Below are positions 1,109-33,606 of a stretch of DNA of 33,606 nucleotides, piece after piece. The notes beneath the pieces are model-generated. The model saw only the letters and a program-made list of their open reading frames with translations, was not told the DNA's origin and made no database searches. Position numbers and translations under genes: made by a program. How positions within the stretch are numbered: the first letter of the stretch is position 1; each line of letters begins with the position of its first letter. Origin of the DNA: a virus; IMG/VR virus record IMGVR_UViG_3300042516_005084, positions 1 to 33,606 of that record; one strand, given 5' to 3'.

Positions 1109-1564
1109 TCATTGGCTCAGCTCCTCGTACGCGTCCACGATCGGCTTGGCTTCGCGCAGGAACTGCTTGCGTAGGTCCTCGTCTGCCTTGATGTAGCGCA
1201 GGCCACGGTTGGCCACCCACTGCGCCACGCGAATCACGGGCGCAAGGAACGGCTTGGGCTCGCTAGGTTCACTGGTGGTGATGGGGTCGGGCAGCATCTC
1301 GGACCATAGCAACAGCTGACGGATCACGCCCGGTTCCCCGCTATTGAGTTTATGCTGATGCGCGGCCACGCGCTCGTATCGCTTGGCCTGCTCGTCGGTG
1401 ATGCCGGCCAATCTAATTAGGTTGGCCACGTCATCGCCGTCTGACCTGGCTTGGCCGATGATCTGCCCAGCCTTGGCGGCTAGGCCGATCACCTCACCCA
1501 CTTGGGCAAGCGCGTCCTCCCGCTTCTTGTTTAGTTCTTTAATTACCGCTTTGAGGGTTTGCAT
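1109..1564 (-). CDS. Hypothetical protein, helical, DUF3102-like in style
   Basis: 151 residues, mostly helical and charged. The first half (about residues 10-75: GLAAKAGQIIGQARSDG ... DEQAKRYERVAAHQ) resembles phage proteins of the DUF3102 type, but I cannot confirm this. The ATG at 1564 has a good ribosome site (AAGGA, nine bases upstream). It overlaps the end of the upstream regulator by 22 bases, so it belongs to the same transcript, and it is the last gene before the terS intergenic region. Function unknown. Confidence 0.7.
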   Translation of the reverse strand: MQTLKAVIKELNKKREDALAQVGEVIGLAAKAGQIIGQARSDGDDVANLIRLAGITDEQAKRYERVAAHQHKLNSGEPGVIRQLLLWSEMLPDPITTSEPSEPKPFLAPVIRVAQWVANRGLRYIKADEDLRKQFLREAKPIVDAYEELSQ

Positions 1565-2028
1565 TTCTTTAGTCCTTTAGTGAGCGCAGATAGGTTGAAT
1601 TTGGGTGTCTCACGCCTGCGCTTGTCGTGATGTGCCCGTGCTCTTTGTTCGTAAGATTTGCGTGCCTTCTCTGACTTGGCTGACCGAAACCGGATCCCCA
1701 GCCGGTCTGCCACGTCCAAGGCCTTCTTGCTGACCGCCTGTTTGGTAATTCCAAACCGCTTGGCCACGTTGGTCATGCTTTCCGTGCTGCGGTTCAGCAC
1801 GATGGACAGCACCGCTTGGTCCAGCGTGTCCGTCATCTGCTGCATGGACGGGTGCTCCGGGGCCTTGGCCATGAGGTAGTCAATCACCAGCACCGTATTG
1901 GTGACCCCGCAGGTCGTAACCGTAATGGTCGAAAACGCCTCTTTTACCAAATCCCGCAGGCTGTCGATCCTCATGGAAGGATGGGGGTCTCCCGAGGGCA
2001 ATCTTTCGATTAATTCCTGGTCAATCAT
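1543..2028 (-). CDS. HTH DNA-binding protein, possible late-gene regulator
   Basis: 161 residues from the ATG at 2028 (a TTG at 2037 is possible). A clear helix-turn-helix lies in the middle: NVAKRFGITKQAVSKKALD, roughly residues 85-103. It is followed by a very basic tail (RRRETPKFN ... KGLKKCKPSKR) suited to nucleic-acid contact. It lies directly downstream of the AACTTGAAGG repeat array, whose nearest copy is 10 bases from the start codon, and upstream of the packaging genes. I infer a regulator that may bind that array, but no known family is recognised. Confidence 0.7.
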   Translation of the reverse strand: MIDQELIERLPSGDPHPSMRIDSLRDLVKEAFSTITVTTCGVTNTVLVIDYLMAKAPEHPSMQQMTDTLDQAVLSIVLNRSTESMTNVAKRFGITKQAVSKKALDVADRLGIRFRSAKSEKARKSYEQRARAHHDKRRRETPKFNLSALTKGLKKCKPSKR

Positions 2029-2037
2029 GACACGCAA

Positions 2038-2151
2038 CCTTCAAGTTGTTTTGAGCCGTCAGACTTCACCTTCAAGTTCCCCCTTAAAGGGGGGAACTTG
2101 ATGGTGGTACCGTCAACCGAACTTGAAGGTACCTTCAAGTTAATTTGAAGG
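2038..2151. repeat. Array of six AACTTGAAGG half-sites with a perfect palindrome and hairpin; candidate origin or operator
   Basis: The 10-mer AACTTGAAGG or its complement occurs at 2038-2047, 2069-2078, 2095-2104 (one mismatch), 2120-2129, 2132-2141 and 2142-2151 (one mismatch). Copies four and five form a perfect 22-base palindrome (2120-2141). Copies two and three flank an 11-bp stem (2073-2083 with 2090-2100) with a six-base loop. The array fills the gap between the primase-helicase gene and the HTH regulator. Iteron-like repeats beside a primase-helicase suggest a replication origin. An operator for the downstream regulator, or both, is equally possible. Confidence 0.8.
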
Positions 2152-4113
2152 TTAAAAAGGCTCATCGGTTTTTTCCTCCAAAACGTAGGTTCCATTGGCC
2201 TGTTTTTTGACGATTTTTAATCCCAAAGCTCGGGAAACGATGCGGTAGGCGGTGGACTCAGATATGCCGTCCGCCTGCTTAATTACCCAAGCCTCAAGGT
2301 CGGATCTGGTGCATGGGTAGCCCTTAAACCTGGTCAGATCGACCTGCTCTGGCTGTGGCCCGGACTTCTTTTTGACCGCCTCCCCAGCCTCAATCCACGC
2401 CATGCCGTGGTCGCTATGCTTTAGGTTTATATGCGGCTGGACTGAATTTTGAGCCACAATGCCGTTAGAATTGAGATTAGACCGCTTCCCGCGTTTGGTT
2501 ACTTCCAAGCGATACAAACGCTTTCCTTCCGCGTCCTCGCCGCATGGCGCCAACATTAAAACGGCTCTGGCCCAATTCGTCAGCTCGCTCGAACCAAACC
2601 CGCTGTAGGCCTTGTCGTGGCCCTGATAGCCCGTGCCCTCTTTCAGCGGCTTGGGCGTGTGGTGAATCAACTGCCAAGCAAACCCAGCCGACAAGGCCAG
2701 CGGGTTTAGCCGGTTGCGGAGAAAACCGCCGGCCGTCTCTTGGTTGGAAAGGTCGCCCCCGATAAAGGCCAAAAGCGGATCCATCCAAAACAGGTCAGGG
2801 CGGTGCTTCTCGGCCAGCCTCCGGGCGCGGTCCACAAAGGCCTCCCCGGTGCTGGTGCAATCGCGGACGATCGTGACGTTAGTCATGACCAGCGCCATCT
2901 CCTCCGGCGTCAGGTTCATGGCTTTAATGACCCCCTGCACCGCCTCCGCCACGTCCCCCTCGTCGTTCTCGGCCTGGACGATCAGGCTGCGCAGGCCGTC
3001 CCCCTTAGGCGTAATGCCAAAAAAGGAGCGCCCAACCGCCCACGTGATGGCGGCCTGTAGGCACAGGACAGACTTGCCCAGCCCGCTGGATCCTACCCAC
3101 AAGGCCGAGCCACCACGGCAGATCCACCGCCTGCCAAGAAGCGTGGTCGGATCCGCCTCCTCCTTGAAATTCATCAGCTGTTCCCAGCTGTAGGGCTCGG
3201 GAATGTCCCCATAGACCGTCCACTCCTTCCATTGCAGGTAGGTCAGCGTCGGCGCCCCGCACTCCACCAGCTCCTGCTTTTGGCCCGTGCTGGTGCGGAC
3301 AGCGCCCGGGAGGCGGCTTAACCGCCCCGGGTCCTTGTTGGCCACGTCCGGCTTGGCGTGAGCCAGGTGTTTGTAAATAAAGTCCACCCGCTCCCGGTAC
3401 TCGGGCTCGCTTTCCGCATCCACCCGCACCCAGCCGTGCAGACTGCGGCCGCCCGACCGGATGATGCAGCTGGTGGGTAGTCCGGCCTTTTTCAAAAAGG
3501 CCCACTGCTCGTCCAGCGTGCTTTCGTCGAACTCGACTAGGCAGTGCCGCCACTTGGTGATGTCGGCGGCTTTGCGGCTTTTGCCGTTGTTTGGATTGAT
3601 GGAGCAGTAAACGCCCACGGCGTCCCCCTGCCACTTGGCCAGCCCGTCCCCCTTGAACAGCTCGATCCACTCCTCCCGGGTGCGGGTCTCTCCGGCTCCG
3701 TCCGGCCTTTCCCGGTCGCCGTCGTTGATCGCCCGGCAGATGTTGATGGATTCGCCCAGCTCAAAACACGTGGCCAAAAACTTCTCGGCCGGCGTTTCGC
3801 CCACGCTCTGCGGCATGGGCGGGACGGGCATCTCGTTTTTGATAATCGTCAAATTGCGCAACTGGTACTTGGCGGCCGGCCTCCACGGATCGCGAGCTGG
3901 GCGGGCGTAGGCTGATCTGACCACGCTAAGACATTCGCGCTGCGTCAGTCCGTTCTGGATTCCCCACCCCTCTGCCTCGTTTTCGGCGTCGGCCATTGCC
4001 ATGCCGCCATCCCGAAGTTGGCACACGATGGCAAACAGCGTGGTGTTTCGCGTGCCTTCGGCCGCCCCGTTCTGCATGGCGGCCTTGGTGGCTGGGGCCA
4101 GATCGACAATCAT
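2152..4113 (-). CDS. Primase-helicase (AEP-like primase fused to RecA/RepA-like ATPase)
   Basis: 653 residues. The N-terminal part (about 110-300) has archaeo-eukaryotic-type primase features: EFDE at 194-197 and SGGRSLH at 220-226, matching the acidic and S-x-H motifs of that fold. The C-terminal part (about 325-560) is a RecA-like ATPase of the RepA/AAA_25 type, with Walker A GSSGLGKS (341-348), Walker B LFWMD (441-445) and an HHTPKP motif near 484-489. A winged-helix-like end follows (residues 590-650). It probably primes and unwinds phage DNA. The ATG overlaps the preceding stop as ATGA. The repeat array immediately downstream may be its target. Confidence 0.85.
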   Translation of the reverse strand: MIVDLAPATKAAMQNGAAEGTRNTTLFAIVCQLRDGGMAMADAENEAEGWGIQNGLTQRECLSVVRSAYARPARDPWRPAAKYQLRNLTIIKNEMPVPPMPQSVGETPAEKFLATCFELGESINICRAINDGDRERPDGAGETRTREEWIELFKGDGLAKWQGDAVGVYCSINPNNGKSRKAADITKWRHCLVEFDESTLDEQWAFLKKAGLPTSCIIRSGGRSLHGWVRVDAESEPEYRERVDFIYKHLAHAKPDVANKDPGRLSRLPGAVRTSTGQKQELVECGAPTLTYLQWKEWTVYGDIPEPYSWEQLMNFKEEADPTTLLGRRWICRGGSALWVGSSGLGKSVLCLQAAITWAVGRSFFGITPKGDGLRSLIVQAENDEGDVAEAVQGVIKAMNLTPEEMALVMTNVTIVRDCTSTGEAFVDRARRLAEKHRPDLFWMDPLLAFIGGDLSNQETAGGFLRNRLNPLALSAGFAWQLIHHTPKPLKEGTGYQGHDKAYSGFGSSELTNWARAVLMLAPCGEDAEGKRLYRLEVTKRGKRSNLNSNGIVAQNSVQPHINLKHSDHGMAWIEAGEAVKKKSGPQPEQVDLTRFKGYPCTRSDLEAWVIKQADGISESTAYRIVSRALGLKIVKKQANGTYVLEEKTDEPF

Positions 4114-22948: not shown

Positions 22949-23568
22949 GGCTGGTCCCACACGGGCCGGATGGCGGGGTCAAACGTGACCATCTCCTTCA
23001 GCCCGGCGCCGCCGTGGGGATAGACGGGCTCGTAGTGGTAACGCCGGACGCACGGCGGCCAGCCGATCCGGCCCCTGCCCCGCTGGGCCTTGGAGGTGTC
23101 CACGCTGCGGTCATTGTCCTCGATGACGAACGTGCAGGGCAGGCCGTGCCCGTCCACGTAGTTCACGGCCTCGTAAAAGTGGCCCTCGTCCTCCGCGCCG
23201 TCGCCCACAAAGCACCAGACGTGGCGGGCTTCCCCGGCTTCCTTGATGCGGTGGGCCACGCCGGCGGCGATGCCGCAGGTGCCGGCCAACACGCTGGAGC
23301 TGTAAAAGTTTAGCCGGTGGTCAAAGACAAACATGCTGCGCCCCTCCCGGATCATCTGCTCCAGGGCGTCCGGATCCCCTCCGTGCAACAGGTAGTGATA
23401 GTGGGAGCGGTGGGTGGAAAACACCCAGTCCCCTCGCCTAATTTCCCCAAACAGCCTGACCAGCTGCACCTCGTTGCCGCCGCAAAGGTGAATCAGGTAA
23501 GGCAGCTTGCCATCCTTAAACAGCCGGCGGATGCGCAGCTCAAAGTTGATCAGATCGTGCTCGTTCAT
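22945..23568 (-). CDS. Thiamine-diphosphate-dependent E1-alpha-like subunit (short)
   Basis: 207 residues; typical 2-oxoacid dehydrogenase E1 alpha is over 320. The family landmarks are present in order: RRGDWVFSTHRSHYHYLLHGGD (45-65), FYSSSVLAGTCGIAAGVA (about 89-105), and the TPP/Mg motif GDGAEDEGHFYEA (122-134) ending with EDN (150-152). The C-terminal third is missing. ATG overlaps the radical SAM stop as ATGA. It should pair with the E1-beta-like protein two genes upstream to bind thiamine diphosphate. Substrate unknown. Confidence 0.82.
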   Translation of the reverse strand: MNEHDLINFELRIRRLFKDGKLPYLIHLCGGNEVQLVRLFGEIRRGDWVFSTHRSHYHYLLHGGDPDALEQMIREGRSMFVFDHRLNFYSSSVLAGTCGIAAGVAHRIKEAGEARHVWCFVGDGAEDEGHFYEAVNYVDGHGLPCTFVIEDNDRSVDTSKAQRGRGRIGWPPCVRRYHYEPVYPHGGAGLKEMVTFDPAIRPVWDQP

Positions 23569-24656
23569 ACAAAGGCGTCGTGGCTGTCGGACGCCAGACT
23601 TTCAAACAGGGCCACCTTGTTGTGGTTGGCACACTCATGCAGGCAGCTGACGCCGGGGTTGAAGGTCTTGTGCCAGGCCCGGGCCTCCGGGCTGAACCAC
23701 GCCTGCCGGAACGACTGATCCCTGAAGGACGCGATCCGGCCGTGGGCGCTGTAGGCGGTGTTGTGGCAGGCGTAGATGTTCAGGTCAGCTGCGGCCACGC
23801 AGACGGCCTGCGCGTACAGGCAGCGGGCAAACGGACGGACGGGGCTTTTGGACGGGCTGTCCAGATCGTAGGTGCTGTTGACGCTGAAGGTGTCGTCGAC
23901 CAGGGCCTGGCATTCGGCCAGCTGTTCGCGCACGCGCACGGCAATGTCCTTGTGATAATCCTTGAAGCCCTGCACGTAGACGGGCGAGAAGCGCACGTTT
24001 TCCACGCCGCACTCCTTGAGGGTTTGGGCAAACGGGGTGATGCCCTCGTAGTTGTAGCGGGTGACGATGAAGTTGACCCCCAGGTCGCACGTGGCGGTCT
24101 TGGCGGCGGCAAAGGTTTTCATGTTTTTCAGCACGGCCTCAAAGCTGGCCGGAGGCACGGCGCGGCTCTGGTGCATCTGTTCGGCGCTGGTGTAATCGAT
24201 GGACACGCGCACCCACTTGGCCCGGGTGAGAATTTCGGCGCGCTCGCCGGTGAGCAGCTGGCCGTTGGTGATGATGGACAGATCGATGCCGGAGGACAGC
24301 GTGGCGGTCATGGCTTGGGTGATGGCGGGATGGAACAGCGGCTCGCCCCCGCCGGAAAAGGTGACGGCCCGGACGTTCATCTCGCGCAGGTCGTCCATCA
24401 GCTCCAATAGCTTCCACGTGGGCATGACGTCCTGCTCCTTCATTTCGGTGTGCATGGCGGACTGCAGGTGCAGGTCCGGCCGGTCCTTGGGCCGGGTGGT
24501 GCCGTCGCTGTAGGTGCAGAACCGGCAGGCGTGGTTGCAGCGGTTGGTGGGCTTGATGCGGACGTAGAGCGGGGCGGTGAGCGTCTGGGTGCGGAAACTT
24601 TCCACCTTTTCCGGAAAGCTGAAGATCTTGTAATCGCTGTACTTGTTTTGGCGCAT
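23565..24656 (-). CDS. Radical SAM / SPASM-type enzyme
   Basis: 363 residues. The cluster motif CNHACRFC (C40, C44, C47; C-x3-C-x2-C) binds the 4Fe-4S that cleaves S-adenosylmethionine. TFSGGGEPL (97-105) is the SAM-binding GGE motif. C277, C284, C295, C336 and C340 near the end (SCLHEC) suggest a SPASM-like auxiliary cluster site. Such enzymes modify peptides or sugars. It starts in a TGATG overlap and sits between the two thiamine-enzyme halves. Substrate not predictable. Confidence 0.88.
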   Translation of the reverse strand: MRQNKYSDYKIFSFPEKVESFRTQTLTAPLYVRIKPTNRCNHACRFCTYSDGTTRPKDRPDLHLQSAMHTEMKEQDVMPTWKLLELMDDLREMNVRAVTFSGGGEPLFHPAITQAMTATLSSGIDLSIITNGQLLTGERAEILTRAKWVRVSIDYTSAEQMHQSRAVPPASFEAVLKNMKTFAAAKTATCDLGVNFIVTRYNYEGITPFAQTLKECGVENVRFSPVYVQGFKDYHKDIAVRVREQLAECQALVDDTFSVNSTYDLDSPSKSPVRPFARCLYAQAVCVAAADLNIYACHNTAYSAHGRIASFRDQSFRQAWFSPEARAWHKTFNPGVSCLHECANHNKVALFESLASDSHDAFV

Positions 24657-32246: not shown

Positions 32247-33606
32247 CCTCGCTGGCAGCTGTTGGCGTAATGATGCGGCCGTACACGGCCCACCCGGCTA
32301 GGTAGGTTTCGCAGTCGTATAAGTGATCTTGCCGCTGTTTGATTCGCACCCATTCGTAAAGATCGCGGCCGGTTTTGCGGTTAATCCGGTGAACTTTTTT
32401 ATGGGAGGACATGTGCTCGCGGTACTGCGGGCTAACGTCGTGGGGAATTTCCCAAAGCGGCCCATGCCCTCGCCTTAGCCAAGCCAGCAGGTCCTGGCAT
32501 CCTGGCGAACTTAACAGGATCAGCATGCAACCGGCGTCGGTCGGCTGCGGGGAGCTGTGCACGGATTTCATGCGGCCGCGTGGCGTTTCAATAAAATAAT
32601 TGGCCCGCTCCTCCCCCTTGATTGCCGTCCATCGGTAACGGGCGCAGATGCGGTAGCTGTCCTGCGTCTCGTAGCCTGAATCCATGCAAACGTGCTCGGG
32701 CCGGACGCCTTGCGCGTCAAGGTGGTGAGCTAAGTCCTCAATGGTTCTGACGTGCCCCTCGTCCCAAAGCCGGCTGGATCCGTCCGGCATAAAGGCACGA
32801 ACGACGAACCAATAGCCGTCAATCTGGCGGTCGATGGCTGCAAGTTTTAGGTGCTCCTGCGGCCACTGCTGCTTTTTGGCAAAGCCGCCAACCGGAATCT
32901 GAACACTGGCGTCGTCATCAAACTGATCGTCCCACGGCTGGGCGGCCCATCCATTAACCCACCCCTGCAGGCCGTGCAGGTAATGCTTTTCCGTAAGGAA
33001 CTTTTTACAAACATCGGCAAAGGTGACGGTCGGGCTGTACCACGACGGAAGGCGCATGCTGCGCCTTCCGGACTCGGCGCCCGGATTGCCGGCCACCCAC
33101 CTGCCCTGCTCCACGGATTTCCTGCGGTTACCCTCGCCCCACTTTGCCTTGCAGGACTCGCACTCGTAGTGCGCTGATTCGGACACTCGCCGCAGATCCC
33201 ATTTGCCGTCGGGCAGCCGCGCGTCCTGGTCCCAGCGCATTTGCGAGAACTCCATCGGCTGCATGTGGCCGCAGGCATGGCAAGGCACGTGAAAAAGTTC
33301 CTGAGTCCCCGCAATGTAGTTCTGCCAAATGTCCCCGGTGGCCAGCGTAGGTGTGCTGGTCAGGACGTGCTTTCGCTGTGGAAAGGACTTGGTCCGCTCC
33401 AGCGCCAGGCTGTAGGCGCTGGCGTTTTTATCGTCGGCGGGGGCAAAGGAATCCAATTCGTCTAAGACTCCTATGCAAATCGGACGCGAGCTAAGATTGG
33501 CCGGACTATTACTGCCAACCAAGGACAACGTCATAGTCGTAAACTGCATTTCAAGGTTCTTGTAGTCGTCGCTGTCGCGTGGGAACACGGCCCGCACCGG
33601 TTTGCA
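32188..33606 (-). CDS. Terminase large subunit, GpA-like, C-terminal part
   Basis: Continuation of the gene that starts at 490. Numbered on the joined 593-residue protein, a Walker B acidic pair follows a hydrophobic strand (IGVLDE, D171/E172). A zinc-finger-like pair, CHAC (C230, C233) and CESC (C270, C273), is typical of the GpA family. The C-terminal half carries the nuclease region with conserved acidic residues. The last 59 bases overlap the end of a plus-strand gene (31950-32246) tail to tail. The 127 bases at the right end duplicate positions 1-127. Confidence 0.9.
   Translation of the reverse strand, partial: CKPVRAVFPRDSDDYKNLEMQFTTMTLSLVGSNSPANLSSRPICIGVLDELDSFAPADDKNASAYSLALERTKSFPQRKHVLTSTPTLATGDIWQNYIAGTQELFHVPCHACGHMQPMEFSQMRWDQDARLPDGKWDLRRVSESAHYECESCKAKWGEGNRRKSVEQGRWVAGNPGAESGRRSMRLPSWYSPTVTFADVCKKFLTEKHYLHGLQGWVNGWAAQPWDDQFDDDASVQIPVGGFAKKQQWPQEHLKLAAIDRQIDGYWFVVRAFMPDGSSRLWDEGHVRTIEDLAHHLDAQGVRPEHVCMDSGYETQDSYRICARYRWTAIKGEERANYFIETPRGRMKSVHSSPQPTDAGCMLILLSSPGCQDLLAWLRRGHGPLWEIPHDVSPQYREHMSSHKKVHRINRKTGRDLYEWVRIKQRQDHLYDCETYLAGWAVYGRIITPTAASEASSALGGTTAGEAPSAPPR
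33480..33606. repeat. Terminal direct repeat (assembly overlap), right copy
   Basis: Exact second copy of positions 1-127, lying inside the large terminase gene. Any feature here is the same physical sequence as at the left end and should be counted once. Confidence 0.93.

Follow-up and report, generated by a model that had tools for sequence, protein, structure and literature searches.

We find that a six-copy repeat array directly following a primase-helicase gene in an uncultured phage genome is best explained as an iteron-type replication origin, read by the C-terminal winged helix of the primase-helicase itself (probability about 0.78). The original prediction had offered either an origin with iterons and a hairpin primase start site or a multi-site operator. 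Of these readings, an iteron origin with a hairpin has the best support, as the array is unique in its genome, conserved in layout and tied to the primase-helicase's own DNA-binding domain. Judged from sequence comparison, the array is probably a replication origin.

The window, meaning the whole stretch of viral DNA analysed here, is 33,606 nt long and carries an exact 127-bp repeat (1-127 and 33480-33606) inside the terminase gene. Because these ends overlap exactly, the record can be closed into a complete 33,479-bp circle. The minus strand carries most of the long ORFs that have family matches; even so, the cumulative GC skew curve changes direction at ~12.8 kb and ~32.4 kb. An A/T-rich stretch at 1001-1108 (41% GC) with A- and T-runs, located between two minus-strand genes, is a possible unwinding or regulatory region, and the phage genome also encodes a radical SAM domain protein (23565-24656).

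The array, with a palindrome and a G/C hairpin, fills a 123-bp gap between the stop codon of the primase-helicase gene (TAA, 2152-2154) and the start codon of the HTH gene (ATG, 2028), both genes being on the minus strand (Table 1). Six copies of AACTTGAAGG occupy the 114 bp of 2038-2151, four of them exact and two with one mismatch. The coordinates bear out what had been described from the letters: repeats in both orientations after the primase-helicase gene and before the HTH gene, and a perfect 22-base palindrome made by the fourth and fifth copies. The G/C stem-loop placed between the second and third copies is also real, with both copies lying inside it as an outer stem; the hairpin scored 26.0, and none of 20 shuffles scored above 15.1. 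A search of the full 33.6 kb record for AACTTGAAGGT (11-mer, at most one mismatch) gave the six array sites only. Counting copies of any 10-mer with at most one mismatch gave six in the gap, against a maximum of three both in 1000 dinucleotide shuffles of the gap and in the other 123-nt tiles of the window.

Table 1. Features of the array and its flanking genes in the window.
Feature	Position	Strand	Description
HTH protein P0001 (161 aa), next gene	1543-2028	-	word similarity independent of its identity; not the repeat reader
Iteron copy 1	2038-2047	-	AACTTGAAGG, exact
Central hairpin	2067-2106		C/G-run core, A/T-rich loop; copies 2 and 3 form the outer stem; proposed initiation/priming element
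Iteron copy 2	2069-2078	-	AACTTGAAGG, exact; arm of outer hairpin stem
Iteron copy 3	2095-2104	+	AACTTGATGG, one mismatch; opposite arm of outer hairpin stem
Perfect 22-bp palindrome	2120-2141		copies 4 and 5; longest palindrome of the window
Iteron copy 4	2120-2129	+	AACTTGAAGG, exact
Iteron copy 5	2132-2141	-	AACTTGAAGG, exact
Iteron copy 6	2142-2151	+	AATTTGAAGG, one mismatch; adjoins the primase-helicase stop codon
Primase-helicase (653 aa)	2152-4113	-	PriCT-1-like helices, AEP-type primase region, RecA-family (AAA_25) helicase, C-terminal winged helix
C-terminal domain (CTD, ~80 residues)	2155-2391	-	winged helix, recognition helix ~SESTAYRIV; proposed repeat reader, protein half of the swapped block

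Pfam matches of the primase-helicase are to AAA_25 (E 4.6e-19) and, at the N terminus, PriCT_1 (E 0.002), with no Pfam match to TOPRIM or SF3, and its PHROG match is 2597, DNA primase (E 7e-50). The [DE]hD and sxH motifs of AEP primases are present as E194-F195-D196 and S224-L-H226 (S224-x-H226) and are invariant in 39 relatives; the primase region thus appears to be of AEP type, with catalysis predicted from these motifs. An AlphaFold2 model of the protein (mean pLDDT 80.8) has as its best PDB structure match the RSF1010 RepA helicase (1nlf, TM-score 0.74 by target length), a likeness of fold only, and a PDB sequence search returned only weak RadA-like matches and one NACHT match. When modelled alone, the CTD adopts a winged helix (helix-helix-strand-strand, with its folded part at a pLDDT near 90) whose PDB structure matches, all with weak E-values, are mostly winged-helix regulators of the Fur, IclR and MarR families. 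We found no replication or binding experiments in the literature on this primase-helicase family.

Scanning IMG/VR and GTDB with both neighbouring proteins yielded ~190 loci, some of which share a contig, and the named GTDB organisms among them are mainly Verrucomicrobiota. A similarly laid-out array occupies the same gap in ~140 distinct relatives, chiefly Verrucomicrobiota phages and genomes. The repeat word itself is wholly different between lineages: at least a dozen unrelated words directly follow the primase stop codon, among them CCTTCAAG, CAGACAAATT, TAGTGCAGTA, ATGTACGAAAA, CTATCACC, CTTGGGGG, CTGACA, GCTGCAAA and GTGTTCC. The most repeated 8-mer reaches at least four copies in 131 of 143 distinct loci, compared to mostly two or three in shuffles. 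Left copies usually share mostly one orientation; next comes a G/C hairpin whose loop is A/T-rich, then inverted right copies, at similar spacing. Each of 14 related records searched has a single word cluster, with few isolated single matches elsewhere. Distant relatives in which an unrelated gene follows in place of P0001 still keep the array.

A further viral scan with query A3 added almost nothing to this set of relatives, and P0001 was without relatives among the GenBank phages. Repeats also occupy the space behind the homologous primase-helicase gene of Streptococcus phage Javan355 (30% identical). Such repeat-filled gaps span 300-400 bp in Javan355 (L351:3376-3774) and in Streptococcus phage Javan173 (L353:3439-3740), and these are possibly the origins of both phages too. 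Enterococcus phage EFC-1 has after its primase just a short three-copy AAGCTATTTA run and a palindrome. Relatives with different words, some of them near-isogenic sisters, occur within one metagenome (L004 and L006 in 3300046011; L033, L036 and L042 in 3300032225; L016, L069 and L346 in 3300014050), which suggests that origin types coexist in one community.

Using Mantel and partial Mantel tests on 56 non-redundant loci, with the CTD taken as the final ~72 residues of the primase-helicase, we found that word similarity correlates with CTD identity (rho 0.72) and continues to do so once core and P0001 identity are removed (partial 0.70, p=0.001). The corresponding partial value for the primase-helicase core was only 0.08, and P0001 identity had no significant relation to the word (-0.015, p=0.69, to -0.04). 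Words are common to 98-100% of pairs with CTD identity above 60% and to none below 25%. A second, independent clade, the Akkermansiaceae elements with ~35% core identity to the window, gave a CTD partial of 0.57 (p=0.001) and a core value of -0.30. Similar recognition helices accompany words that are shared in part: VGHTKSRD with CTATCACC, IGETKSRD with CTATCCA, and IGEKKSSE (L346) with CTATCCGCA. As the CTD and the array are adjacent, hitch-hiking adds to their association. Adjacency alone is nevertheless a poor explanation, because P0001 starts ~10-40 bp from the other end of the array and has no such association, and because words stay constant across CTD identities of just 60-75%. From these comparisons we consider it very likely that the CTD binds the repeats. 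P0001 was rejected as the array binder: its sequence is 99-100% identical between the window and L006, L050 and L051, and L036 and L034 despite unrelated words.

DNA alignments of closely related pairs (window/L006, L050/L051 and L077/L060) reveal that the CTD and the array are replaced as one block between highly identical flanks. DNA identity is 82-98% until ~240-300 bp before the stop codon, the CTD and array are then barely alignable, and 84-100% identity resumes at the start of P0001. The repeats and the protein tail predicted to read them thus appear to be swapped together, like a lock and its key. In a separate clade comprising many loci (L293-L343), the first ~380 residues are as in the Akkermansiaceae primase-helicase and the remainder is different, which marks a second exchange point inside the protein; there the gene is followed by TTTGAACC repeats and more direct repeats.

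Comparison of arrays also distinguishes the central hairpin from the other possible pairings. Of 194 arrays, 129 contain a G/C stem that closes a short A/T loop, compared to 47 of 970 shuffled sequences; arrays that have none come mostly from distant relatives, some of which carry CTCTC-type stems. Within the TAGTGCAGTA class, two-sided changes affect four of the six pairs of the central stem and 0 of 216 cells are broken, and in the window's own word class two central stem pairs have two-sided changes. Pairings between other copies had none in these two best-sampled word classes. The central hairpin covaries independently of the word and would fit a priming site; we give even odds that it serves as one. 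These observations bear on whether the array instead acts as a structured RNA, in which copies 6:5, 4:1 and 3:2 would pair in a transcript and control expression of the HTH gene or mRNA decay. The predicted fold of the array transcript is indeed strong (-61.7 kcal/mol versus -36.6 in shuffles, z -5.9) with all six copies paired. However, the partners of the 4:1 pairing vary independently at an A/T position, and a fold of this kind is out of reach for distant arrays in which four direct repeats precede the hairpin. Rfam matches at the gathering threshold were absent for both the window and the array, the sub-threshold ones looking like chance hairpin resemblance, and an RNA would leave the correlation between word and winged helix unexplained. 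We regard this reading as very improbable: since in the best-sampled classes the central stem alone covaries, double-stranded repeats flanking one real hairpin describe the array better than a single folded RNA does.

A multi-site operator, in which the CTD or P0001 bound to the repeats would repress transcription or translation of P0001 and later genes, draws on the position of the array directly ahead of the P0001 start codon and on an AAGG in copy 1 that could be a ribosome-binding site. Initiators also often autoregulate. The part of the original prediction that made the array an operator of the HTH protein is contradicted by the change of words at near-complete P0001 identity and by the arrays of distant relatives that have another gene behind them. 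Further, we found no sigma-70-like promoter in 1900-2400, and the array comes after, not before, the gene that encodes its apparent reader, leaving an operator as the main function unlikely. The terminase large-subunit gene starts ~1.5 kb downstream of the array, as might suit a packaging (pac) site, which we considered along with partition and recombination sites; the word nevertheless tracks the primase-helicase CTD, and the layout stays beside the primase in distant relatives with other downstream genes, so a function of this kind is hardly to be expected. We therefore favour an iteron-type origin, to which the same binding may add an autoregulatory role.

Some observations count against an origin. 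No pronounced AT-rich unwinding element was found, the array having 43-45% GC compared to ~58% on one side, and among distant relatives are some without the G/C hairpin or with just two or three copies. GC skew, proposed with the original prediction as a check, showed no extremum at the array in any of ten genomes; the extremes lie 3.4 to 16 kb away, which is weak evidence either way.

Phage P4 encodes an SF3 helicase in its alpha protein and has a second repeat region, crr. Like the system described here, P4 alpha and its origin combine a primase, a helicase and a winged-helix origin reader in one polypeptide with origin repeats, whereas the P4 primase is of the TOPRIM kind and the window's protein has AEP-type motifs, a RecA-family helicase and a single array (PMC4234260). 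In staphylococcal pathogenicity islands (SaPI) and in SCCmec, the initiators Rep and Cch2 each recognise, through their CTD, repeats that follow the gene encoding them (PMC7581432), and the likeness extends to an initiator helicase, short repeats directly downstream of its gene and specificity in the CTD, which here is a comparative result. Their helicases are DUF927 or D5-like, in contrast to the RecA/RepA kind (AAA_25) in the window (PMC7581432), and the central G/C hairpin belongs to the window's array.

The plasmid pRN1, with its ORF904, and Bordetella phage BIP-1 share with the window an AEP primase, a helicase and a C-terminal winged helix (PMC4234260). A stem-loop downstream of the primase-helicase gene is essential in pRN1, a counterpart has been proposed in BIP-1, and within the pRN family its sequence varies while the fold is kept (PMC4234260). 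The window shares this trait, a hairpin after the primase-helicase gene whose structure is kept through sequence change; unlike the window, pRN1 and BIP-1 have an SF3 helicase and a large stem-loop without iterons (PMC4234260). Among solved structures, the hexameric helicase RepA of RSF1010 comes nearest in fold to the helicase part, and the oriV of RSF1010 has iterons and hairpins recognised by a primase; its functions are divided among separate RepA, RepB' and RepC, with RepC as a dedicated iteron reader and two hairpins, ssiA and ssiB, in contrast to one fused protein and one hairpin in the window (PMC4234260). Because at least one defining feature of each is missing, we do not file the array under SaPI, P4 or RSF1010 origins. 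Most likely, to judge by these shared features, it works like them, as a variant.

In the mechanism that we propose, the winged-helix domains would bind the repeats as double-stranded DNA, and the bound protein would load rings of its RecA-family helicase around the hairpin. Unwinding would bare the hairpin, where the fused primase domain would lay the first primers, and a polymerase would then elongate them. One polypeptide would thereby take the roles that RSF1010 assigns to RepC (iterons), RepA (helicase) and RepB' (hairpin primase).

From sequence alone, these results assign to a large group of uncultured phages a likely origin together with the domain that probably reads it. They supply many natural pairs of domain and site, including near-isogenic swaps, as material for a winged-helix recognition code and for the study of origin compatibility. 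A one-gene initiator of this design could switch origin specificity through a single recombination step. More tentatively, Verrucomicrobiota phages may carry a self-contained replicon in which an AEP primase, a RepA-like helicase and an origin reader are fused, and in which reader and array form an exchangeable cassette that sets origin-compatibility groups, with competition among co-infecting sister phages maintaining their diversity.
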